Source: Puccinia triticina
Lineage: Eukaryota; Basidiomycota; Pucciniomycetes; Pucciniales; Pucciniaceae
Direction: 5' to 3'
DNA: 64,000 nucleotides
NCBI RefSeq assembly: GCF_026914185.1
Contig: NC_070575.1
Span: forward strand, 930,001 to 994,000
The translations under genes and the position numbers were made by a program. The first letter of the stretch is position 1. Each line of letters starts with the position of its first letter. A model generated the notes under the pieces. The model saw only the letters and a program-made list of their open reading frames with translations, was not told where the DNA came from and searched no databases. This document shows, in pieces, positions 37,558 to 52,458 of the stretch.

Positions 37558-40097
37558 ATGTTCAAGTTTAGAGTAGCGGCCACCTCATCATCCCGACACC
37601 TCAGCCATCTCCCCGAGCAGCCGATCAAGTTCACGAACCACGCCCGATCCTCATCAGTACCACTGCCACCTCGGAAAACAACTGAAGCACAGAAACCGTT
37701 CTATGTCTCAACTCCAATATTCTACGTCAACTCTGGTCAGCACAATCTCCTAGCTATCTTCTCACGTATGGGTGAATAACCAAACTAATTGAACCTGAAA
37801 CCATCACAGTTCCTCATATTGGCCATCTCCACTCAATGGTCATTGCCGATGTCCTAGCGCGCTATAAACAATTAAGAACAGACACACCATCCTTCATGCT
37901 CACCGGTACTGATGAACACGGCTCCAAAGTCCAGCGCGCTGCCGAAAATAATGGGCAGTACCCTCAAGAACTCTGCGAAGCCGTCTCGGATCGATTTCGA
38001 GTGTGTAAGATATCCTGTTCACATGGTTTTCAAGGCCGCCATGTGATCGAACAATTGATTATCTCCCCCTCGGCCGAACAGCAATTGGCTCGAGCCGCAA
38101 ACGTCAAATACGACGACTTTATCCGGACAACTGAGCCTCGCCACCATCGAGCGGCACAACACCTTTGGGTAAATCTGCCCTTCTCTTTAATTTCAAGTTC
38201 AAAAAGGATAAATCGTATCAGAAAAAATTGATCTCCAAAATTGACCGCTGCCCTATTTTGCAGAACATCTTGTCAGAAAATGGTCATATTTATAAAGGTA
38301 AATACGAAGGTTGGTACTCCGTGTCAGATGAAACATATTACTCTTCTACTCAAGTCGAAAAAAAACTGGATCCGGTAACTGGAGTTGAAAGAATGGTATG
38401 TAAATTTTGCTTCATTCGCTTCCTTCAAGATATTTGAAATCACATTGATGTGTAATTGTCAGTCTTTCTTCGCGTCCTCCCCCCCCCCCCCCCCCTTTCT
38501 CGCTTGATGTGGTGTCCGAAAAAATCAGACTTCCATCGAAACCAATAAGCCGGTGGAATGGATCGAAGAAGAAAATTACATGTTCAGATTGAGCGGATTT
38601 CAGCAAGCACTAATCGATTGGTTGGACAATAACCCAAATGGTAAAGTCTGGCCAACTTTCCCGAAGCCCTTTTTCTGCCAAGGACACGAACACTGATTTC
38701 CTATCGATCAAATAAGCCCTTATATCCTCTCAACGCTCTGATATCATGCACCAACTGAAGTCCCACGATCTTGCCGACTTGTCTATCTCCAGACCCACTT
38801 CTAGACTATCTTGGGGAATCCCTGTTCCTGGAGATCCCCAACAAATAATGTATGTTTGGCTGGACGCGTTGTCAAATTATCTAACAGCTACTGGATACCC
38901 TTGGTCCGGAAAGGAAAATGTTATGTGGCCGGCCAACGTCCACGTTATAGGCAAGGATATTATCAAGTACGTGAACCCCCCACGCCCACACCCTCGGTCT
39001 CCCAAATAGTCTTGGTCGCCGCGGTGACTGATTTGAATCAAAGATTACTCACTCATCTCTGTTTATCCTTTACATTAGATTTCATGCGATTTACTGGCCA
39101 GCCATTTTGATGGCTGCTGGGATTCCCTTGCCAAAACACATCATCGCCCATGGCCATTGGAAAATTGACCAAGAGAAGATGTCTAAGTCTGTTGGAAACG
39201 TGGTTGATCCGTTTAAAGCTATGGACGAGTGGGGTGTTGATGGCGTTCGGTATTATCTCATGCGGGCGCCTGGCTCATTATGGGGTGACTCAGGTTTGTT
39301 CTTTCCTCTGTCTTGATCTTTGCTCCTGCTGTTTTCCCTACAGACACGAAGCCTGAAATTGGGATGATTTGCTTTGTTTCAGATTGGGCTCCCAATCGAT
39401 TAGATGAGCATTATCGGAAGGATCTTTTAGGGCAATTGGGGAATCTTCTCGCGCGGATCTCGGCACCGAAATTGTGGAATAGACTTCCTCCCGGAAGACG
39501 GTCGGGCGCCAGTATTCTCTTCCCACCTGGATCCGCAACGCAGCTTGAAGGAGCTGATTCACTTCAAAGACTTCTTCGTCAACTACCCAGTATGTCATTG
39601 AAACAAGTGTCGTTCGTATTTGATTCCTAACTTCGGGGCTAACTACTGTCAAATACGCAATGATGTTTCGGTGGTCACTAGGTGAATTGGACGCTCATAT
39701 GCAATCGTTTGAAATCCCAAAAGCATTGAAATCAATTTTCGATGTTCTAGCAGGCGTAAGTTGATCGATCTGAGAAATAGTATAGGATATAGGATGATGA
39801 TTGACGAGGATGTGGATCCAGGCAAATCGATTGATACAAGACACAGCGCCATGGCACGATTCGACGACGCCAGACGATGCATACCAAGCCATCCATCTAT
39901 CTGCCGAATCGCTGCGGATCTCCGGCATTCTTCTCCAGCCGTTCATTCCCACCAAGGCCGGGCAACTGTTGGACTCGTTGGGCGTCGCTCAAGATCGCCG
40001 GGGGTGGCCTCACTTGGCCCTCGGACTTGGTACTGGTTCCGTCGTCCGTGAGGGCGGCGGCGGTTTGCTATTTCCTCAGCTCCGGCCATCTAAGTAG
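37558..40097 (+). CDS. MSM1: Mitochondrial methionyl-tRNA synthetase
   Basis: Class I aminoacyl-tRNA synthetase that charges tRNA-Met in mitochondria. Ten exons, all phases consistent: 37558-37735, 37810-38000, 38082-38168, 38264-38395, 38529-38640, 38717-38966, 39079-39293, 39383-39589, 39682-39755, 39822-40097; 573 residues in all. The N-terminus (MFKFRVAATSSSRHLSHL) is basic and Ser-rich, like a matrix-targeting signal. The HIGH motif is in VPHIGHLHS (about residue 62), then MLTGTDEHGSKVQ, YDDFIRTTEP, GWYSVSDETYY, WGIPVPGD, MYVWLDALSNY, and KMSKS at about residue 350. The C-terminal helical anticodon-binding part ends with FIPTKAGQLLDSLG. There is no zinc-knuckle insertion, as expected for the mitochondrial type. 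A 17-C run (38479-38495) lies in intron 4. Confidence 0.96.
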
Positions 40098-40599: not shown

Positions 40600-41718
40600 C
40601 ACTGCCCGCAAACGGGTGACGAAATCCGGATTTCGTCGCGCTGACGAAATCCAAATTTTGCCCCGAGTTCGAGCCCCGGCGCTGTTGTCACCTGCCCTGG
40701 ATTTTGTCACCTCCGGCAGGTCACCCAGGGATTTCGTCAGCTGAGCTCTCAGCTCAACGCTCACACACCCTCTCAATGGCCGGTCAAACCGGTCATTGAG
40801 AGGAATACACATCCCCTCGATGACCGGTCAAACCGGCCATCAGGAGGGGAACACACCCTCTCAATGGCCGGTCAAACTGGTCATCAAGAGGAATACACAT
40901 CCCCTCGATGACCGGTCAAACCAGCCATCAAGAGGAGTACACACCCTCTCGATGGCCGGTCAAACCGGTCATTGAGAGGTTTGACCGGCCATCGAGAGGA
41001 ATACACATCCCCTCAATGACCAGTCAAACCGGCCATCAAGAGGGGAACACACCCCCTCCATGGCCGGTCAAACCGGTCATTGAGAGGAATACACATCCCC
41101 TTGATGACCGGCCATAACGGTTCAATTGGCCATCAAGAGGATTCCTCTCAATGACGAATTTTTGATTGGCCATTGAGAGGATTCCTCTTGATGTCCGGCC
41201 ATGGAGGGGGTGTGTTCCCCTCTTGATGGCCGGTTTGACCGGTCATCGAGGGGATGTGTATTCCTCTCAATGACCGGTTTGACCGGCCATCGAGAGGGTG
41301 TGTTCCCCTCTTGATGGCCGGTTTGACTGGTCATCAAGGGGATGTGTATTCCTCTCGATGACCGGTTTGACCGGCCATGGAGGGGGTGTGTTCCCCTCTT
41401 GATGGCCGGTTTGACCGGTCATCGAGGGGATGTGTATTCCTCTCAATGACCGGTTTGACCAGCCATCAAGAGGGTGTGTTCCCCTCTTGATGGCCGGTTT
41501 GACTGGTCACCGAGGGGATGTGTATTCCTCTCGATGACCGGTTTGACCGGCCATGGAGGGGGTGTGTGAGCGTTGAGCTGAGAGCTCAGCTGACAAAATC
41601 CCTGGGTGACCTGTTGGAGGTGACGAAATCCAGGGCAGGTGACAACAGCGCCGGGGCTCGAACTCGGGGCAAAATTTGGATTTCGTCAGCGCGACAAAAT
41701 CCGGATTTTGTCACCCGT

Positions 41719-42714
41719 TGTGGAACTACTCAAAGGGGAGAATAGAGCTTGGAAGGTAAATGGATAGCAACACTAGTACTAATGTAAGCTATGCAAGGGT
41801 GCTGATGAGGCTGCCTTCCTGACTAATGCTGAGGGGATGAGAGTAACACTAAGAAAAAGAAAGAAAAGGTGTGGCTGATTTCTACTTGATCTTAGGAGCT
41901 AGTACTATGAGCTTTAACTACTGACTACTGAGGGTAAGAGAGTTGGAGGAGGGATGAGAGTGGGGGATGCAATGGCAAGGTTCAATAGCAATGGGTTCAG
42001 GAGCAACTGCACTGATATTTAATGGGTGATAAGTAATTTCTAACTTATAATTTCTGTATATAGAATTCTGCCTATAGTTCTCTCATGAGGTACAAGTGAA
42101 GGGGGAAAGACAGTTCTTATAGTAAGGAGGGATGAGCACAGACAATGAAAAGTTCTGGCTATGGGAATGAAGGTTGTACAAATGAGGAAAAGTGATGTGA
42201 ACATAGTAACAGTATGTAATGATGAGCAATGCTGAAAAGGGAATGCTGGTTATGGAAATAAAAGAATGTACTAATGGGGAAAAGTGATGAGAACATAGTA
42301 ACTACTTGTAATGATGAGCACTACTGAAAGAGGTAAGCACAGATCTAATGATGTAATGTGCACAATAGGCATAGTACATAATGAGAAATGTATGTAAAGG
42401 GTTTAGTATGTGAGAATAAATCTGTAAAAAGAATGTAATGAAATGATTCAAGTAAATTACTAATGAAATGAGTAATGTAACTAATGAAGACTGTAGGGTT
42501 TCTGTAAGTCTTATAGCCTCTATAACTATTGAACCATTGAAGATAAGAGTATACTATGTATGAGTGACTATATGTAAAATTTGATGTATAATCTGAATAT
42601 GCAATAATAATGAGGTATTTGTGAAGGGTTATGGAGAAATGGGCAATGTAATGATGAATATATTGTAAAAGAAAGCAATAATATACTACTTATGGTTTGG
42701 AATGGAGCACCACA
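41719..42714 (-). repeat. 3' LTR of gypsy element
   Basis: 996 bp. Reading it through, I find no CG dinucleotide. The coding-strand ends are TGTGGTGCTCC and TAGTTCCACA. Confidence 0.95.
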
Positions 42715-43650
42715 TCCTCCCCCAACTTATTGTCTGTCCCCAGGCAATGCACCAAAGAGAAGAGTGATCCAGAAAGAGTTGAAGAATGTTGAGTCCAAGA
42801 GTCCAAAGTCCAAAGTCCAGTGTTCTTCCTCCAAAAGGTGAAATCCAAAGTCCTGAGTAGCAGTCCAAATCCAGAGTCCAGTGTCCAAAGCCAATTAGAA
42901 TCCAAGTATAATCCAAGTCCAGTATATCTGAGTCCAAGGTATCCAAGTCCAATTCAAAGTCCAATAGTCCTATGTATCCAGAGTATCCATAGTCCAGTAT
43001 CCAATCCAAAGAGTCCAGTATCCAAAAGAAGGTCCAATTATCAATGAGGGTTGAATGTTTAAGAAGATTTAACTCTGCTGAAGGCAATATCCTTGAGACA
43101 GACACATATTAGACTAAATTTCACTCTGAAGAATAATTTTCCCGCCTAACTGAGGCTAAGGAAGAATGCAATGATTGATGATGATTGATTGATGGGGTTG
43201 ATAATTGTAATTTCTGAAGGTTGTGAATGATTTGGAATTGAATGCCTGAATTTCTGAGTATCTGAGTATATAATGTAAAGTTCAGTGAAGAGAATTTGAA
43301 GTCCAGAGATGTTGATAAGCTGTCCAAAGAATATTCTTGCTCAAGTTGGGTGGTTTCTGAGCTGCAATGTGTTGGAAGAAATTGATTATAATAATGAATG
43401 AATGAGTGATTGGATTGTTGATTGAATAATTCCTAGAGTACAGGGTGAAGATGATGAAGAAATTCCAGTATTGTGGTGGTTGGATGTCCAGTAATTGCTA
43501 TTAGATAATAAGGAATGATTATTGATGGATGATTGATTGATGATCCATAATTGATATTAGATGGTAAGGAATAATGATGGATTGGATTGATTGATGGATG
43601 GATAAAATGAGTGATTATCCAAGGATGAATTCCTTTTCCATGATGATGGT
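42715..43650. repeat. Degenerate AGTCCA and GATTGATG repeats
   Basis: About 42780-43040 is a run of degenerate hexamers around AGTCCA (AAAGTCC, AGAGTCC, CAAGTCC), and 43140-43620 is rich in GATTGATGG and AATGATT. Open frames here encode only repeated Leu/Asp/Trp and are not credible genes. The stretch links the 3' LTR to the CpG-containing block. Confidence 0.7.
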
Positions 43651-43869
43651 TCTTCTCTACTTCTCTCCTCCGTGTCGTGTGTGTGTCCCCCCATTATTCT
43701 TGAGTACTTAACTCCTTTTAATTTCCCCATGTCCACTACGAAAAAGCGTTAAATTTTGTACAGAGGAGGAATGGAACATGTGTCCATGCGCGCGTGCTGT
43801 CGAAAGAGGGGTCCTGATGTCTGAGCGGGGGCTCCAAGCGGGAGGCGCGCGTGCGGAATGACGAAAAGA

Positions 43870-44340
43870 AAAATAGAAAATGGTCGACCTGTATCTCCGG
43901 AACGGCTCGATGAAAATTCTTGAAACCGAGTTCATTCGAAAGAGGCGATTCTGCAGATTAAAATGGTATATACTGGTTATTTTTAAGGGTTGAGTATCGA
44001 TTGTTTAGGGCCGGTTAAAGATCCAAGCAAGACCCGCGGGCGCGCGTAGTAGTAAAGCCGTGCAGATTAAGAGACCATCTTCCTTTGCATATAACTCCAA
44101 AACCCGTCGATGAAATTTTCTAATTACGAGCTCATTTGAAATACTGGAAGGAGGAGATGAAACTAGAATAGATTTATATTGAGATTCCTTTCGGCCGATA
44201 GGTCGCCGTAAACGTTTAATGAATGGCACCCACGGGGCCGCGTAAATCCTAGGGAAACTTTGAGGGGTTATAACTTCTAAACGGCTCGATAGAATCGTCC
44301 AGAACCAAGTTCAAATGAAAGGCAAGATCGCATTCATGAA
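43870..44340. repeat. Three diverged units upstream of antisense gene
   Basis: Units at about 43885, 44085 and 44265, spaced 180-200 bp, share ATAACTCC-AAAC-GGCTCGATGAAA, then a GAGTTCATTTGAAA-like block. They are CpG-containing, unlike the rest of the retrotransposon, and lie just upstream of the antisense ORF. Promoter or captured host repeats are both possible. Confidence 0.6.
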
Positions 44341-44752
44341 GACTGTAATGATCAATATTAAATTTGAAGCCGGCCGACCGATTATTCGAGCGATTAAAGC
44401 TTTATTATGATTTTCCGCGGTTTCCATTGTATAGGAGTTGAAGGGAGATGAATACATGATGAAATACTCTTAAGGTAACGCCAAGGAGCTGTCCAATTAG
44501 ACTCCTGAAGCTGGCCAATCGATTGAAAAAAGTTATAGGCGAAAAGAATGACGTGAAAGCATTCCAAGAATTTAATTAAACTGGGTCGAACACCAGAGTC
44601 AACATTAAGAAAATGAAAGAGAATCCGCGCCACACAATTCTGAGCGGTGAAGGCGTCCATAGTGACGTCATAAAATGAAGAAAAATGAATATCTATAAGG
44701 CCCCAGGTCGTTGGCCAACGGAAAAGTTCCGTTATCGCATTCAATATCCGTA

Positions 44753-45600
44753 ATGTTTGCCTCCAGCGCCACTTCCACGCCCTCATCGCCGAAAGAAAAC
44801 CTCAATAACTCCTTAGATTATTCTTCAAACACGTCCATAACTTCATCTCAACTCGACAAAGCAGCCGTTATTAGCCCCTCTTACGATATCCCGTTTTCCA
44901 TTCGTCGAGCGCACTCGGCCGTAGACAACGTCCACGCATATAACTCCGGCATGCGGGACAGTTTCAAACCCGAAGAAATCTACGCCTTGCGCCACTTTAT
45001 CCAGCAAGGACTCCTTGCCTTTGCTCGTGAGGACCTCGACGACCCGGTTGCCGCACGAAACGCACGTCTGAGGTTGTATAGCCGATTTCACGACGCCTTT
45101 GCACATGTATGTCGAGTGGATTCTGTATGTAGATGAATAAGAATTTGAAAAGAAAGAAGATTGATTATAATACTGATATTTTTCCCTGTTTCTTTTTTGA
45201 TTTTTAGATGGATACTCATTCCATAATAGATGCCATGATAGAGGAAACTGAGGAAAAGAATGCCCTGGAGTTGTTAAGGGTGAGGGACCAAGTGGAAGAG
45301 GAGGAAGATGGTTGGAGGGTAGAAGCAGAAATGGAGAGGATAAGAGCTGAGGGTAAGTTCTATTTTTATTCCTTATTGAGGATTTTTACTAATGTTATGC
45401 TTTAATTTTTCTTTTGATGTCTTTTGATTTTTAGATAAGGAGAAGGAAAAAGAGAAGGAGAAAAGTGAAATGGAAGAGGGTGATGTAGTGATAAAAGAAG
45501 AAGAGGTGAGCTTTTGATTTTTATATTTAGTTATTTTTATTTGAGAGTGTTTTTGAGACTGATTTATATTGATTTATTTCTGATTTGTTTATAGATTTGA
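44753..45600 (+). CDS. Antisense spliced ORF inside gypsy, unknown function
   Basis: Four exons fit with consistent phases: 44753-45106 (or to 45124), 45208-45352, 45435-45505 and 45595-45600. Donors are GTATGT, GTAAGT and GTGAGC; two of the three acceptors share the tract TTGATTTTTAG. The predicted protein is about 190 residues: a Ser/Thr/Asn-rich start (MFASSATSTPSSPKENLNNS), a middle with IYALRHFIQQGLLAFAREDL and ARLRLYSRFHDAFAH, then an acidic helical tail (EETEEKNALELLRVRDQVEE, EKEKEKEKSEMEEGD). No signal peptide, membrane segment or known domain is seen. It runs opposite to gag-pol and stops 18 bp from the pol stop codon, so the two converge without overlap. It could be a captured host gene or an element gene of its own. 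Splicing is predicted only. Confidence 0.5.
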
Positions 45601-45618
45601 TTTTATTTTGTTGTTATG

Positions 45619-48600
45619 TTATTGTGTAAGAAGATGAGAAAGAGAAAAGAGAAAAGAGATGAATTGATTATTCCTTATTTGTTTTTTCCTGGAGTGGTAT
45701 TCCTTGACATGAGTTGCAGCAAACCTTCTGGCTAATTCTGTGCCATCCAATTCTTCCAAGATGTAAGATCCTCCTGGGTTTTGAGCTTTGATTCTGTAAG
45801 GGCCATTCCATTTATTTTCAAAGAGCTTGCCAAACTGAGAGTCCAAAGATTTATTATACACTACTACTAATTGACCTTTCTTTAGTGGCTGCCTTGATGT
45901 TTTCTTCTTGTTCCAATAGTCCACAGAGTTCTTCCTGGAATCCATAAGCTGCTGGTGTGCTTGCTGCAAGATGGTATCCCTGTTTTCAAGCTGCTGAGTC
46001 CTAGCCAATAGAAGATCCTGAGTTGATTCTACCTTTGACCAATCCACTCCAAAGAAGGTTTCCAATTCTAGGTCAATGGGTAAGATGGGGGGCTGTCCAA
46101 GAACTAGTTCATAAGGTGAGTATCCAGTTGATCTTTTGGTGGAAATTCTGTCTGCAAATAAAACCAAAGGTAAATAATTCCTCCATTTCTTGCCTTCCTT
46201 TCCACAGAGCTTGACCAAGGTATCCTTAATTGCCTGATGTCCTCTTTCTACCATACCATTTGCTTCAGGATAATAAGGGGTGGTGACTTTGATTTTGATT
46301 CCAGATTCCAGAAGGGATTTTTGAAATTGTTGTCCAAATTCAGAGCCTCCATCCACTGTGACTGACCAAGGGGCTCCATATCTGTAGATCCAGTTGTCCA
46401 AGAACCACTGAGAGATTTTCTTTGCTTGAATCTTTTCTAGTCCAACTGCTTCTACCCATCCAGAAAGGTCATCTCTTGCAATTACCAGGTATTTCCATTT
46501 GCCAGCTTTGATGTGAACTGTATCCAAACTGTCTCTTCCAAAGATGGTTGCTGCTCCTGTAGGTTTCTTGGGTTCCATTGGCAATTTTGAACTCCTCTTC
46601 TGGCAAGCTTCACAAGACTGGACCCACTTGGTAACACCTCTCTTGAGACCTGGCCACCAAAATCTGAGTTTAATTCTTCTGTAGGTTTCAGCAATACCTC
46701 TGTGGCCTAAGGATTCATGAAGGGAATTGAGGATGGAATTCTGAGCTGAAGGAGAGGTGACTACTATCTGAGAGAATGGTTTGTTGATCCTGTGCAAGAC
46801 TCCATTGGAAAGGAAAAAGTTGGCTGATTTGTGCAAAATTTGCTTGAATTCCAGGCTGCTGCATCCTGGAGGTTTGTTCATGGTTGAAAGGTATTCCTGG
46901 AGGTGCTTCCAAATTCCTTGCTGCAAGTTACTTACCCCCTCCCCCAACTTAGCTGATGTCCCCAGAAGCAGGCCAAAAGAAGAATGTTTAGTTCCAAATC
47001 CAGGGTGAGGTTTGATCCAGGTTTCATCTTCATCAAAGCTAGGACAGTCATCTTCATCAGAATCAGGGGGTCTTCTTGAAAGTCCATCAGGTAAGGTGAA
47101 AGTTTTTCCAGGAGTGTGAACAAGGTCATAGGAGAATAACTGAATAAATCCAATCCATCTGTTCATAGGGGCATTGGGAAGTGAAGGGTTGTTGATCATT
47201 CCAATAAGGCACTGGGCATCCACTCTGAGTTGAAAATGTTGGCCCCACAGTTTGGTTTGAAGTTTCTTGAGGATCTTGGCAACACCACAGAGTTCTAATT
47301 TGGATTGTGAGTACTTTGATTCCCTGGGTGAAAAGACTACTGACTCATATAACACAGGCCTATCCAATCCATCAGAATCCTGTTGAGTAAGAACAGCACC
47401 TGCAGCAATAACACTGGAGTCCACTGAGAGTTTGATTAAGCCAGCATCAGGTCCATAGTCCAATTTCTTCAGGGTGATATCAGTTCCAACAATCCTTTTA
47501 AGGTCCTCAAAGGCATCCTGGCAATCTTCAGTCCAATCCCAAGAGGAGTCCTTCCTGGTGAGTCTTCTGAGTGGAGCAGTAATGGTTGAGTAATTTTTAA
47601 TGAACATTCTAACATATACACAGATACCTAGGAATCCTCTGACATCTGAAGGAGTGGTGGGAGTTGGCCAGGTTTCAATTTTGTTGAGCTTCTTGATGGA
47701 TATCCTTCTGCCTTCCTTACAAACCACATGGCCTACCAGATCCAGAGCAGGTACACAGCAAGCAAATTTCTTCCCAGAGATGGTGAGTCCAGCTTCTTCA
47801 ATCCTGAAAAGAATCCTTTCCAGAGTAATGGCATATTCATAGATAAATCTTCTGATCTGGGGGTTGTCCTTTAGAGTTTCTTCATTGTAGTCAGAGGTTG
47901 GTCCTTTTATACCTCCATCATCCACAAAGATTCCCATATGTTGAGGTAATTCATCCTGTAGTATCCACATCATTTGGGCCTGGTAAACTGCAACTGAATT
48001 GGTGGCTCCTTGGGGTAATCTGGTAAGTTGAAATCTTCCAAGGGGTGTTTCAAAGGTGGTCAAAGGTCTGGATTCTGGAGCTAATTCTCTTTCATCATAT
48101 CCTCCCATAATATCACCTAGTCCATAGCAAGCCCTTCCAGTGAATGATTCAATGAGTTCCTCTGTCTTTGGTGGTAGTCCAGCGTCCTTAATGGTGACTT
48201 TGTTGAGTTTCTGAAGGTCATGTACAATTCTGAGCTTACCATCCTGCTTCTTTACACAAAATATAGGGCTGGAATAACTGGAAAAGGATTGTTCATAGAG
48301 GCCAGTGCTGAGTCTTTCCCTTACCAATTCTATAACCTGGTCTTTGATGGGTGCAGGGATTGGAATTGGTTTCTGTTGCCAAGGTTCATGGGGAATGACT
48401 GGAATAATATAAGGCTGTCCATAGGTGTGTTTAAGAAGGCCTCTTTCTGTTTCTACAAAAGCCAAAGCACCTTGTCTAATCACAATTACCCATACCAGTA
48501 GGAGATATTCTTGAGGAGAAAGCCATCCAGGAGGTCCAAAATTGATGAGGTCCAGCCTTTCTTGAGTAATCTTGGAGGTAGGAGTGAATGGTGGAGGAAA

Positions 48601-48855
48601 AGGGCTTAAAGGAGTGAGGTAAGGATCTCTTGAGAGTGGTGGCCTTGACAATGGGGGGTTGAGAGATAATGGCATTGGTTGGTTTACTGGTTTTATTTTT
48701 TTTAGAGTTGATTTATATTTTGCTGAATGAGTGACTACAGTTTGTTGCTTTTGGTTGTTTTCCAGGGTTGCAGTTGTAAGAGAGGGGAACTGAAAACCTG
48801 GTCTCAATCTAAAAAATTTAACAGTCCAGAATTGGAAGGTATGCTGGTTTCCCAC
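45619..48855 (-). CDS. Gypsy Pol: RT, RNase H, integrase
   Basis: 1,078 codons open. Reverse transcriptase: VKKQDGKLRIVHDLQKLN, LTRLPQGATNS and FVDDGG (about residue 310, the Y/FxDD box). RNase H: LSVDSSVIAAGAVL and SKLELCGVAKIL. Integrase: zinc-binding HESLGHRG...CEACQKRS (about 715-760), core with D in VIARDDLSGW, VDGGSEFG and EANGMVERGH. RT-RH-INT order defines Ty3/gypsy. The frame is -1 relative to Gag, and the two overlap by 52 bp (48804-48855). There is no credible own start before the RT: the first pol-frame residues only exist through the overlap. Expression by ribosomal frameshifting is therefore likely. All catalytic residues checked are present and there is no internal stop. Confidence 0.95.
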   Translation of the reverse strand: MGNQHTFQFWTVKFFRLRPGFQFPSLTTATLENNQKQQTVVTHSAKYKSTLKKIKPVNQPMPLSLNPPLSRPPLSRDPYLTPLSPFPPPFTPTSKITQERLDLINFGPPGWLSPQEYLLLVWVIVIRQGALAFVETERGLLKHTYGQPYIIPVIPHEPWQQKPIPIPAPIKDQVIELVRERLSTGLYEQSFSSYSSPIFCVKKQDGKLRIVHDLQKLNKVTIKDAGLPPKTEELIESFTGRACYGLGDIMGGYDERELAPESRPLTTFETPLGRFQLTRLPQGATNSVAVYQAQMMWILQDELPQHMGIFVDDGGIKGPTSDYNEETLKDNPQIRRFIYEYAITLERILFRIEEAGLTISGKKFACCVPALDLVGHVVCKEGRRISIKKLNKIETWPTPTTPSDVRGFLGICVYVRMFIKNYSTITAPLRRLTRKDSSWDWTEDCQDAFEDLKRIVGTDITLKKLDYGPDAGLIKLSVDSSVIAAGAVLTQQDSDGLDRPVLYESVVFSPRESKYSQSKLELCGVAKILKKLQTKLWGQHFQLRVDAQCLIGMINNPSLPNAPMNRWIGFIQLFSYDLVHTPGKTFTLPDGLSRRPPDSDEDDCPSFDEDETWIKPHPGFGTKHSSFGLLLGTSAKLGEGVSNLQQGIWKHLQEYLSTMNKPPGCSSLEFKQILHKSANFFLSNGVLHRINKPFSQIVVTSPSAQNSILNSLHESLGHRGIAETYRRIKLRFWWPGLKRGVTKWVQSCEACQKRSSKLPMEPKKPTGAATIFGRDSLDTVHIKAGKWKYLVIARDDLSGWVEAVGLEKIQAKKISQWFLDNWIYRYGAPWSVTVDGGSEFGQQFQKSLLESGIKIKVTTPYYPEANGMVERGHQAIKDTLVKLCGKEGKKWRNYLPLVLFADRISTKRSTGYSPYELVLGQPPILPIDLELETFFGVDWSKVESTQDLLLARTQQLENRDTILQQAHQQLMDSRKNSVDYWNKKKTSRQPLKKGQLVVVYNKSLDSQFGKLFENKWNGPYRIKAQNPGGSYILEELDGTELARRFAATHVKEYHSRKKQIRNNQFISFLFSLSHLLTQ

Positions 48856-51248
48856 TTCTGATTACTGGGGAGTATGATTGGAACCAAAAAAGTCTGACCA
48901 GCTGAATCCATGATTGAAAGTGCTTCTCCTCTGGCTCCATTGTAGTTGATGTTAGCTGAGACATCCATTAAGAAAGGCTTTCCAATAATCATCTGAACTG
49001 GTCCTTTGGCTACCCAGAAATGAACTGTCCTGACTACTTTCCCAATGGTTACCTCCACATCTTCAGCAATTCCAGGTATATCAGTAAGGTGGCCTCCAAT
49101 TCCTTTGAGCTTCATAGATTTAGCAGTGAGTACCAATCCAAGTTTATGTGCAAGAGTTTTAGGAATAATGTTGACCATAGAACCAGTATCCAAGAGTGCT
49201 TGATGTTTCTCTCCTCCAATAGTGATGGTGATGTATCCAAGGGGGCAGGAGTAGTGAGTAGTGGGTTGCTCCTGTGCTGGTTCTTCTCCATCCTCCATGT
49301 CTGTGAAGTTTGCTGATTTGACACCATCCAATGGGACCCTTCTGTTGGTTATCTTCTTCCTAATACAGTCAGGAACTCCTGGTGATATAGCAAAGATTTC
49401 TCCAAAAGCCAACTCCATCTTTCCTGCAGTCAACATCCTACTAGCCACTTCCTCTTCAATTCCTGGGTACTCCTTGGCCAAAGTCTTCTCCAAATAGGTT
49501 TTCTTAATTGGTTTGTCCTTAGGTGCAGTAGTTGAATCCTTGTCCTTATCCTGGAATCTGACTTGAGGGGAGCCTTTTGAAGTAGGGGATTTGGAAGCAC
49601 TAGGAGTAGGGGGCTGTGTCATGTGAAGTAAGTCCTCTGTATCCATGTCCATTAGGTCCTGTTTCTCCTTCCTGATCCTTTTGTCTGCCTTGACTGATTC
49701 CTCTTCATCCTGATCCTTAGAGTTGTTTCTAGTCCTCTTTCCAAGGTCTGCTTCATAACTATGGGCTTGATAATAGACTGGGTCCTCCTCTAGTTGGCCA
49801 AAAGAAGATGTGAGCTTAGTTTTAGAGTACTCTTCCACTGGGGTTCTGATTGGTCTGCTTGGAATCCAGGGAATAACTGATTTGTCTGGAAGTCTGTAAT
49901 CTCTTCCATCCTTGATAACAGCACCACTAGACATGTCCTGGGCAAGTTGAGAGCAGCTGTTGGTTCCATGGGTTTCCTGATGACAATAATAGCATTTGAA
50001 TGGCCAGGTCCTAGCAGGTTTGTCCATGTGGGGAGGTAGTCCTTTGCCAGCAGTGAGAGATGCAAGTTGTTTGGTAAGGAGTTCCACTTGTTTGTCCAGA
50101 GAAGTAGAAGCAGTAGGAGCAGTTCCCTGAGTAGCAGGTGTGGGTTTGGAGATCCTAGGTGAGTTGTCCAAAGTGAATTTCTCTTCTGCCCTCCATTCAG
50201 TCCTTCTGTTGACCACTGATCTTGAGTAAACTTCCTGGTGAATATAGGTAAGAAGAGTTTCAGTGTCTGGCAAGATATCACCTCCATCCTTTGAGGCTAG
50301 CATTTGATTGTCCCTCATCAAGCTCCTAGTCACTCTTTGATCCAGATCCTTGTGAAGAGTTTCCAAAAGTAGGTGTCTGAATTCCTCCAGGCTAGTACTG
50401 TACCCCATCCTTACCAAGTAGTGAGTGATGGTTTCAAACTTGTTTCTGAATGTGTTGAAGGTTTCCAAGGTGCTGATTCCTCCATCCTGGGCAGATTTGT
50501 AGACTAGTTTCCTGAGATCCTCCCTGGTATATCTGACCAATGGCTGAGAAGTTCCAAACCTGGTGAGTAGCTGTTTCTTCAGGGTTTCCCAATCCAAGTT
50601 TTCATGGCCTGACATGTCTTCCACTTCATCCTTAAGGTCCAACCCTTTGATAAAAGCAATGATTTGTCCAGCCAGTTCTTTAGAGTTAGCACCATCATCT
50701 CTTCCAGCACTTTCATACCTTCTAATAAACTTCTCCACAGGCATGTTGGTTCCATCAAAGAAGAGCTCTTTGTCCATGGGTTTGATCTTAACTCCTCTGC
50801 TGACTGGATCCTGGTACCTTGGCATGGCTGGTTCTCTGTTCAAGAAGTGGGTGTTGGACCTGGTAGAGTGAGTTGAGTGATCCCTTTGGCACTGGAATCT
50901 GGAAAAGCGGGGTGGTGGAACATTTAAATCCTCTGAATCATCTGATGGCTGATTGGTATCCCTGTATCCTGTGAATCTAGGAGCACTGGAAGTCTGAGGT
51001 CTAGGAGGAGGTCTGCAAGAACTGGAGTTGGCCTGTGGAATAGAAGAACCCTGTGGATCTGGAGCATTGGAAGGAGCCTGAGGACCTGGACCAGTAGAAG
51101 AAGATTGGTGACCTGGACCATTGGGAGGAACCTGAGTCTGACCAGTGTTGGAAGTGGTGGAGTCCTGAACTGTAGCATTACTGGAAGGATCCACTGGAGG
51201 GTAAAGACTGGGGGCAACATTGGCGTTGGGAGATCCTTGGGCAGACAT
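48804..51248 (-). CDS. Gypsy Gag with C-terminal protease
   Basis: 814 residues from the ATG at 51248 (MSAQGSPNAN). The first 130 residues are a Pro/Ser/Gln-rich leader. A retrotransposon Gag capsid-like region follows (FIRRYESAGRDDGANSKEL, WETLKKQLLTRFG). A CCHC zinc knuckle, CYYCHQETHGTNSC, lies at about residue 420. An acidic/basic linker includes KRIRKEKQDLMDMDTEDLL. The retropepsin ALLDTGSMVNIIPK lies at about residue 685. Having the protease at the end of Gag rather than the start of Pol is less usual for gypsy elements and makes the shift to Pol the step that adds RT and integrase. The stop codon (48804-48806) comes two codons after the slippery sequence. Confidence 0.94.
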   Translation of the reverse strand: MSAQGSPNANVAPSLYPPVDPSSNATVQDSTTSNTGQTQVPPNGPGHQSSSTGPGPQAPSNAPDPQGSSIPQANSSSCRPPPRPQTSSAPRFTGYRDTNQPSDDSEDLNVPPPRFSRFQCQRDHSTHSTRSNTHFLNREPAMPRYQDPVSRGVKIKPMDKELFFDGTNMPVEKFIRRYESAGRDDGANSKELAGQIIAFIKGLDLKDEVEDMSGHENLDWETLKKQLLTRFGTSQPLVRYTREDLRKLVYKSAQDGGISTLETFNTFRNKFETITHYLVRMGYSTSLEEFRHLLLETLHKDLDQRVTRSLMRDNQMLASKDGGDILPDTETLLTYIHQEVYSRSVVNRRTEWRAEEKFTLDNSPRISKPTPATQGTAPTASTSLDKQVELLTKQLASLTAGKGLPPHMDKPARTWPFKCYYCHQETHGTNSCSQLAQDMSSGAVIKDGRDYRLPDKSVIPWIPSRPIRTPVEEYSKTKLTSSFGQLEEDPVYYQAHSYEADLGKRTRNNSKDQDEEESVKADKRIRKEKQDLMDMDTEDLLHMTQPPTPSASKSPTSKGSPQVRFQDKDKDSTTAPKDKPIKKTYLEKTLAKEYPGIEEEVASRMLTAGKMELAFGEIFAISPGVPDCIRKKITNRRVPLDGVKSANFTDMEDGEEPAQEQPTTHYSCPLGYITITIGGEKHQALLDTGSMVNIIPKTLAHKLGLVLTAKSMKLKGIGGHLTDIPGIAEDVEVTIGKVVRTVHFWVAKGPVQMIIGKPFLMDVSANINYNGARGEALSIMDSAGQTFLVPIILPSNQKWETSIPSNSGLLNFLD
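48810..48816 (-). promoter_or_regulatory. Candidate -1 frameshift site, T TTT TTA
   Basis: On the coding strand Gag reads AAT TTT TTA GAT TGA. The heptamer T TTT TTA therefore sits exactly as X XXY YYZ in the Gag frame, and a -1 slip leads into the open pol frame (AGA TTG AGA CCA). U UUU UUA is one of the best-known slippery heptamers. A downstream stimulatory structure was not assessed. Confidence 0.75.
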
Positions 51249-51462
51249 GATTGAAACAGGTAAGTTGAATCTGAATCTGAAGATTGATAATGAAGGTGCT
51301 GATAGTGTTACTGTTGGTTGAAGTTGATTCTAAAAGCAGGGAGTTGATTTGTAAAGAGAGGAGTATGAGGAGTGTAGGTGAAGTAGTATGTAGCTGATGG
51401 TAAAAGTGTTACTAGAGCTGAAGATATCTGAAGTATAGAAAGGCCACTGTTGGGACACCACT

Positions 51463-52458
51463 TGTGGAACTACTCAAAGGGGAGAATAGAGCTTGGAAGG
51501 TAAATGGATAGCAACACTAGTACTAATGTAAGCTATGCAAGGGTGCTGATGAGGCTGCCTTCCTGACTAATGCTGAGGGGATGAGAGTAACACTAAGAAA
51601 AAGAAAGAAAAGGTGTGGCTGATTTCTACTTGATCTTAGGAGCTAGTACTATGAGCTTTAACTACTGACTACTGAGGGTAAGAGAGTTGGAGGAGGGATG
51701 AGAGTGGGGGATGCAATGGCAAGGTTCAATAGCAATGGGTTCAGGAGCAACTGCACTGATATTTAATGGGTGATAAGTAATTTCTAACTTATAATTTCTG
51801 TATATAGAATTCTGCCTATAGTTCTCTCATGAGGTACAAGTGAAGGGGGAAAGACAGTTCTTATAGTAAGGAGGGATGAGCACAGACAATGAAAAGTTCT
51901 GGCTATGGGAATGAAGGTTGTACAAATGAGGAAAAGTGATGTGAACATAGTAACAGTATGTAATGATGAGCAATGCTGAAAAGGGAATGCTGGTTATGGA
52001 AATAAAAGAATGTACTAATGGGGAAAATTGATGAGAACATAGTAACTACTTGTAATGATGAGCACTACTGAAAGAGGTAAGCACAGATCTAATGATGTAA
52101 TATGTACAATAGGCATAGTACATAATGAGAAATGTATGTAAAGGGTTTAGTATGTGAGAATAAATCTGTAAAAAGAATGTAATGAAATGATTCAAGTAAA
52201 TTACTAATGAAATGAGTAATGTAACTAATGAAGACTGTAGGGTTTCTGTAAGTCTTATAGCCTCTATAACTATTGAACCATTGAAGATAAGAGTATACTA
52301 TGTATGAGTGACTATATGTAAAATTTGATGTATAATCTGAATATGCAATAATAATGAGGTATTTGTGAAGGGTTATGGAGAAATGGGCAATGTAATGATG
52401 AATATATTGTAAAAGAAAGCAATAAAATACTACTTATGGTTTGGAATGGAGCACCACA
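51463..52458 (-). repeat. 5' LTR of gypsy element
   Basis: 996 bp, same length as its partner. Four differences were seen by eye (two transitions, two transversions). It is followed on the plus strand by the rest of the foldback element and the 5' part of the split tRNA-like gene. Confidence 0.95.

Follow-up and report, generated by a model that had tools for sequence, protein, structure and literature searches.

A probable spliced accessory gene antisense to gag-pol in a Ty3/gypsy retrotransposon lineage of the wheat leaf rust fungus Puccinia triticina

Antisense accessory open reading frames (ORFs) have already been reported in long terminal repeat (LTR) elements of plants and fungi. As the available excerpts describe them, the plant antisense ORFs called aORF-3R in Retand, Grande (gene23), RIRE2 and PvRetro13 lie in a long region between pol and the 3' LTR that often contains tandem repeats, occur in most copies of their families, and are suspected to have their own promoter and a nuclear regulatory role (PMC7264820, PMC11963269). 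Likewise, the brtn gene is an extra antisense gene in Boty-like Ty3/gypsy elements of Botrytis cinerea (PMC7264820). HBZ of HTLV-1 is also an antisense, spliced and element-encoded regulator, and the Steamer-like MchSLE-1 element of a mussel is an LTR retrotransposon with an ORF-containing antisense transcript (PMC10974842). The word "intron" is absent from the accessible text of the Retand paper (PMC11963269), and the accessible part of the 2020 review just urges attention to antisense and spliced transcripts (PMC7264820). Here we analyse a 64,000-nucleotide stretch of the P. triticina genome (assembly GCF_026914185.1, contig NC_070575.1, positions 930,001 to 994,000; hereafter the window, to which the coordinates refer unless a locus is named). 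In this window, a Ty3/gypsy element carries a gene with four predicted exons on the plus strand (44753–45600), opposite to gag-pol and in the interval between pol and the 3' LTR. We consider it reasonably probable that this is a genuine protein-coding accessory gene of the element lineage, antisense to gag-pol, spliced, and probably equipped with its own internal promoter.

The gene begins with the ATG at 44753 in exon 1 (44753–45106, 118 codons), followed by intron 1 (45107–45207, phase 0), exon 2 (45208–45352), intron 2 (45353–45434, phase 1), exon 3 (45435–45505), which encodes a charged repeat tail, and intron 3 (45506–45594, phase 0). Exon 4 (45595–45600), reached by a predicted exon join, adds one codon and a TGA stop. 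The stop at 45600 is 18 bp from the convergent pol stop at 45619, just as an earlier note on this DNA, made from the sequence without database searches, had stated. The donors, acceptors and phases of the four exons stand where that note had placed them, and the splice sites and frame-bound exon lengths are kept across copies. Exon 1 can end at either of two in-frame donors separated by 18 bases, the second of which extends the exon to 45124; the first GT is found in 115/115 and the second in 112/115 aligned copies. The predicted product therefore has 191 residues with the upstream donor, close to the roughly 190 residues claimed before, and 197 residues with the alternative donor, for which that figure falls short. 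Exon 4 contributes a single residue to either form. In many copies the ATTTGA of exon 4 is replaced by ATTTTA, so that those copies do not stop at the exon 4 site.

Five annotated hypothetical proteins of P. triticina (PTTG_07521, 28437, 02592, 30984 and 10345; P0001–P0005) match the antisense gene or its sister. P0001 (PTTG_07521), of 195 residues, is 74% identical over the full length, and its final residue is that of exon 4, whereas P0002 (PTTG_28437), of 129 residues, starts inside exon 1. Both proteins have the exon joins as predicted with the first exon 1 donor in use, and their ends are consistent with the removal of intron 3. The gene set with the PTTG proteins was built from RNA-Seq data and several predictors, as described in the available part of its source paper (PMC5295586). 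This backs the annotation as a whole and is no proof for the antisense gene itself.

We searched the 122.8 Mb assembly of 18 contigs, in which approximately 120 places carry the antisense gene. The DNA search gave 40 copies (41 matches, one of which is the second piece of one copy), and the exon 1 search gave 125 matches with 36–100% identity, 106 of which have no stop according to a hand count. Besides the window, 119 loci were fetched. The final alignment has 115 rows including the window, after setting aside L120, L125, L126 and L127 as rearranged or too diverged and omitting L085 for an intron insertion. Among the 100 copies with an unchanged exon 1 length, 87 are open in the true frame and none in each of the other five frames. 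Exon 1 is intact in 86 of the 115 rows, and the full spliced frame in 78. Relative to the window, the length difference of exon 2 is divisible by three in 111 of 114 copies and that of exon 3 in 109 of 113; for exon 3, the in-frame length variants 71, 77 and 83 account for 106 of the 113 copies holding the exon. The corresponding numbers for introns 1, 2 and 3 are 49/115, 49/114 and 62/113, and the length of intron 1 is not bound to the frame. The earlier note had named frame-breaking indels spread evenly through the exons as evidence against the gene, and the opposite outcome was observed: the exons keep frame-compatible lengths, and the introns do not. The GT and AG dinucleotides are kept in 104–115 of the 115 rows (115 and 114 for intron 1, 107 and 108 for intron 2, 104 and 104 for intron 3), as compared with 75–85% for the median intron-internal dinucleotide.

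The ratio of nonsynonymous to synonymous differences per site (pN/pS) follows the same frame. At pair distances of ≤2%, 2–6%, 6–12% and >12%, pN/pS was 0.68, 0.36, 0.23 and 0.23 for exon 1 (99 copies), and 0.36, 0.13, 0.12 and 0.32 for exon 2 (109 copies). The wrong frames, shifted by one or two bases, gave 0.81–3.75 above 2% distance (0.93–3.75 at 6–12%, and 1.3–2.0 for exon 1 above 6%) and 0.50–1.22 at ≤2%. The comparison of substitution ratios over the exons of the family copies, which had been proposed together with the gene model, thus gave values well below 1 for both exons at 6–12% distance. After correction, the ratio of nonsynonymous to synonymous substitution rates (dN/dS) for exon 1 was 0.12–0.29 where dS exceeded 0.08 (intact copies only). 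Judged from these copies, the antisense gene encodes a protein under purifying selection between copies. The low pN/pS values in distant pairs together with 0.68 in the closest pairs suggest purifying selection across rounds of transposition and relaxation after insertion.

The gene is closely attached to the element. The places of the pol C-terminus come from a list in which 132 of 2743 candidates were scored. Among these listed matches, 106 pol places have at least 90% identity. An exon-1 match lies no more than 6 kb away from 103 of them (no more than 2.5 kb from 98) and is never on the strand of pol; the places without such a match are C12:4351123, C13:4383653 and C1:6150867. As seen from the gene, the pol C-terminus lies inside the fetched stretch in 102 of the 119 loci and is convergent with the antisense gene in all 102. 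Of the 17 other loci, L044 and L084 have pol past an insertion visible in the sequence, and for L047, L067, L081 and L095 the listed positions put pol on the opposite strand, at most 4 kb away. This leaves 11 loci, which are pieces in a truncated, tandem, rearranged or degraded state or run into unassigned sequence. The copy at L033 is fused to a different part of pol, L125 (C16, divergent) is a degraded piece near LTR-like sequence, and L109 matches the gene region only, contains stops and could not be assigned to an element. At C13:5464160-5474899 (L110–L113), four exon-1 copies with one TAA each stand in an array with a regular spacing of 3462 bases, which by this arrangement is a tandem amplification of a part of the element. 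At L120 (C1:313000-315400), two exon-1 pieces occur in inverted order, and the annotated P0003 (PTTG_02592) seems to read across an inversion like this one.

Related elements carry diverged versions of the gene. Among the matches listed, 19 pol places are 85–89% identical to the window, and a hand comparison placed a sister antisense exon about 2.5 kb or less from 17 of them, on the strand opposite to pol in all 17. In this second form (L130 and L132), exon 1 has 128 and 125 codons, respectively, and is followed by a phase-0 intron (98 bases in L130) and an arginine-rich last exon. A third form was found in L131, with a pol 72% identical to that of the window, and in L133 (C5:4660302), with a pol of 59% identity beside the gene; its intron 1 is in phase 0 and is followed by a donor for a phase-1 intron 2, like in the window gene. 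Exon 1 of L131 has 18 matches down to 30% identity, of which C2:1369126 and C2:583383 adjoin listed pol places. The profile of the window family scored 31.2 against the second form (maximum of 200 column shuffles, 19.2) and 22.06 against the third (best of 200 shuffles, 21.64), both in gapless alignments. In both comparisons the intron 1 junction falls at the identical aligned residue in the same phase. The antisense genes across these pol relatives (59–89% identical) are linked by profile comparison alone, and we base homology between the forms on the scores, the position and phase of the intron, and the place in the element taken together. Since diverged antisense genes with intron 1 at the same residue and phase occur in related elements, this is probably an old accessory gene of the Ty3/gypsy lineage.

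Motifs upstream of the gene were counted in the 500 bases before the ATG of 114 copies. The block at 44576–44626 (plus strand), several 8-mers of which occur in 104–106 of the 114 copies, is among the best-conserved upstream parts and might be a regulatory region. The palindrome TGACGTCA (44663–44670, plus strand), 90 bp before the ATG, is present in 90/114 copies and stands 89–91 bases before the ATG in 78 of those 90. We take it to be a CRE/ATF-type site, and it could be used as a binding site. It is among the best kept and not unique: counting the palindrome, 21 of the 493 window 8-mers are found in at least as many copies. The palindrome was not found in the sister elements L130, L131 and L132. 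A possible TATA box, TATAAG (44694–44699, plus strand), lies 59 bp before the ATG, and TATAA[GA] is found no farther than about 120 bp from the ATG in 104/114 copies, mostly at 58–60 bases. These motifs at fixed distances are most naturally read as a putative internal antisense promoter.

The antisense gene appears not to have shared one history with the rest of the element. In the 75 copies with all parts, the mean dS was 0.098 for the pol end, 0.244 for exon 2 and 0.753 for exon 1; between pol and exon 1, pairwise dS values correlated at 0.06. Plain nucleotide distances of pol and exon 1 gave 0.38 in 92 copies, and the distance correlations drop along the element, though not smoothly. Trees were built for exon 1, for the span from exon 2 to intron 3 and for the pol end, and in approximately unbiased (AU) tests with 74 copies they reject one another. 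Discordant dS values and mutually rejecting trees indicate that the antisense gene has recombined with the rest of the element, and the history of exon 1 with its preceding stretch seems to differ from that of pol and to reach further back. The simplest cause of this difference would be template switching among element RNAs.

The host element (41719–52458, minus strand) is a recent insertion, since its LTRs are 99.4% identical with 6 mismatches in 1003 aligned bases. It has gag, protease, reverse transcriptase (RT), RNase H and then integrase between two LTRs, the order by which a Ty3/gypsy LTR retrotransposon is recognised. The 3' LTR (41719–42714, minus strand) is 996 bp long and runs from TG to CA, with its ends read from the sequence; the 5' LTR (51463–52458, minus strand) is its partner. 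The gag-protease ORF (48804–51248, minus strand, 814 aa) has the Pfam matches Asp_protease_2, gag-asp_proteas and RVP, and the pol ORF (45619–48855, minus strand, 1078 aa) has RVT_1, RT_RNaseH, Integrase_H2C2 and rve. The two overlap at 48804–48855 (minus strand) in different frames (-1), and the AAATTTT in the overlap is presumably compatible with a heptamer for -1 ribosomal frameshifting. The spacing from pol to the 3' LTR is 2.9 kb; within it, degenerate tandem repeats with periods of 7, 44 and 56 (42792–43600) lie between the 3' LTR and the antisense gene and recall Retand elements. Next to the 3' LTR, a palindromic array of approximately 44-base repeats (40611–41719) has arms of 369 nt with 93% complementarity. 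No target duplication matching at both LTR flanks was seen by eye, and an Rfam search of the window from 40 to 53 kb gave no match. Farther away, open frames at 37836–39009 resemble what we take to be an intron-broken methionyl-tRNA synthetase gene.

The gene is predicted to encode a small protein, rich in Ser/Thr at the N-terminus, probably helical in its central part and ending in a charged tail. As the earlier note had supposed, this protein belongs to no known family: Pfam gave no match above the cut-off, and a PDB sequence search gave nothing above chance. The Rev-like (HIV) or bZIP-like look of the arginine-rich stretch in the sister family is compositional, has no Pfam match and was not used as evidence. 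Transcription, splicing, promoter use, helical structure and function are what we infer for this gene. It would be transcribed, probably from its own internal promoter, and then spliced. In the genomic (sense) RNA, the introns are reversed; they would not be recognised as introns and would be copied back into DNA intact, which is why antisense introns could persist. This argument rests on established retrotransposition biology, and the presence of introns across element copies supports the earlier suggestion that an intron-bearing antisense gene can be carried through retrotransposition. Since the introns are kept in the genomic RNA, production of the protein would require integrated DNA that is transcribed in the antisense direction. 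The protein is probably a regulator of the element; most likely it would be nuclear and regulate the expression or silencing of its own element. A broader and more tentative proposal, to which we assign only a low probability, is a fungal Ty3/gypsy lineage in which a spliced antisense gene of ancient origin has kept its introns through retrotransposition since the split of lineages now about 59% identical in pol. The introns would then act as a lock that restricts the protein to integrated nuclear DNA, and the fast-evolving, recombining exon 1 and upstream region would form an element-specific recognition module for self-regulation or escape from silencing.

Other explanations have to be weighed against this one. 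A chance open frame with chance splice sites, as AT-rich DNA may offer, is conceivable for introns 2 and 3 and exon 4, which are short enough to be picked by eye. However, the conservation of frame, length and splice sites over 115 copies and the annotated P. triticina proteins with identical exon joins refute it, leaving its probability close to nil. Capture of a host gene, which the earlier note had raised, could account for introns as a normal feature of host genes, and a few degraded places such as L109 are not tied to an element. Yet no clear copy was found outside the element among the genome places examined (the exon-1 and pol matches of this genome), every protein retrieved by database search was a P. 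triticina entry of this type, and sister lineages hold diverged versions at the equivalent place. Because no clear host copy was found and 102 of 119 loci have a convergent pol, capture is not supported, and we regard it as highly improbable. Raised G+C content as a hint of capture was considered and rejected: exon 1 and the upstream region have 0.41–0.47, not above the 0.41–0.49 of pol and gag. The accessory function suggested in the same note fits the presence of the gene beside nearly all listed pol copies and in sister elements.

The antisense transcript itself might be the product, forming double-stranded RNA with the genomic RNA for copy-number control while the reading frame is incidental. 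Convergence with pol at 18 bp would suit such a role, as would the report, in the accessible part of its source, that gypsy elements rank among the main repeats giving rise to small RNAs in P. graminis (PMC8444563). But the constraint tied to one frame, the frame-preserving indels of the exons and a pN/pS far below 1 point to a protein product and not to RNA alone. Antisense RNA as the sole explanation, which we hold to be improbable, is largely refuted by this coding constraint, and RNA and protein roles could coexist. A less remote, though still unlikely, explanation is a VANC-like anti-silencing protein that recognises its own element sequence and lifts host methylation, so that the protein and its noncoding target co-evolve fast. 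According to the available excerpts, VANC provides a precedent (PMC5735166), and a related rust silences its young elements by CG methylation (PMC8444563). In our data, degenerate repeats lie upstream of the gene, the upstream region is the most diverged part measured, and the protein is nearly unrecognisable between sister elements. On the other hand, upstream and exon-1 distances correlate weakly (0.22–0.40), giving no clear pairing of protein and target, and no DNA-binding domain was found with Pfam.

Several observations weigh against a protein-coding accessory gene of the lineage. The Pfam and PDB searches found no domain of known function, and the AlphaFold2 model, built from four sequences in the alignment, is poor and unreliable with a mean predicted local distance difference test (pLDDT) score of 47.7. 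The full spliced frame is missing in 37 of 115 copies, and for the closest pairs (≤2%) one wrong exon 1 frame has a lower pN/pS (0.50) than the true frame (0.68). Concerning the age of the gene, a single intron could be found in the second form (L130 and L132), the third-form score is barely above the best shuffle, hhalign gives low probabilities between families (35% and 5.5%), and the alignment of the second form with the third spans only 13 N-terminal residues, which do not cover the junction.

More than 100 copies with a selected frame, introns and phases, together with diverged lineages bearing like genes, make a function of the protein testable. This case also illustrates how an antisense position allows introns to pass through an RNA intermediate and be inherited. 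It further indicates that some annotated hypothetical genes of the wheat leaf rust fungus are retrotransposon genes, which bears on gene counts. In the mostly open-access literature on antisense genes of LTR elements, on such genes in rusts and other fungi and on spliced antisense genes, as far as its accessible parts go, we found no Ty3/gypsy element whose antisense gene is described as spliced more than once; priority cannot be claimed. The extra ORFs of bdelloid rotifers were considered as a parallel and dismissed, as they are not antisense genes in the available text (PMC5408684).

Among the known systems, VANC of VANDAL transposons resembles the rust gene as an accessory protein of a mobile element evolving along with noncoding repeats. 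It belongs to a different element type, and its sequence-specific anti-silencing is shown by experiment in the part of the work available (PMC5735166), whereas for the rust gene such an activity is hypothetical. In the excerpt of its source, HBZ is a bZIP protein with a transcript that begins in the 3' LTR, whereas the rust gene has conserved motifs directly upstream, and no bZIP domain was matched in Pfam or solved structures. For MchSLE-1, in whose accessible text "intron" occurs 0 times (PMC10974842), the likeness is by description only. The same holds for brtn, which is found in an ascomycete host and, from what the excerpt conveys, is alike in being an extra antisense gene of a fungal Ty3/gypsy element. 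The rust gene shares with the plant aORF-3R its place, its orientation and its presence in most family copies, as its coding sequence runs opposite to gag-pol in the interval that separates pol from the 3' LTR; this interval is likewise long and contains tandem repeats. It differs from them in being fungal and in having three predicted introns, and the rust protein gave no Pfam match above the cut-off to the TRP28 (transposase 28) domain (pfam04195) of the Retand antisense ORF. By position and kind, the closest known counterparts of the rust gene are the plant antisense additional ORFs and brtn of Boty.
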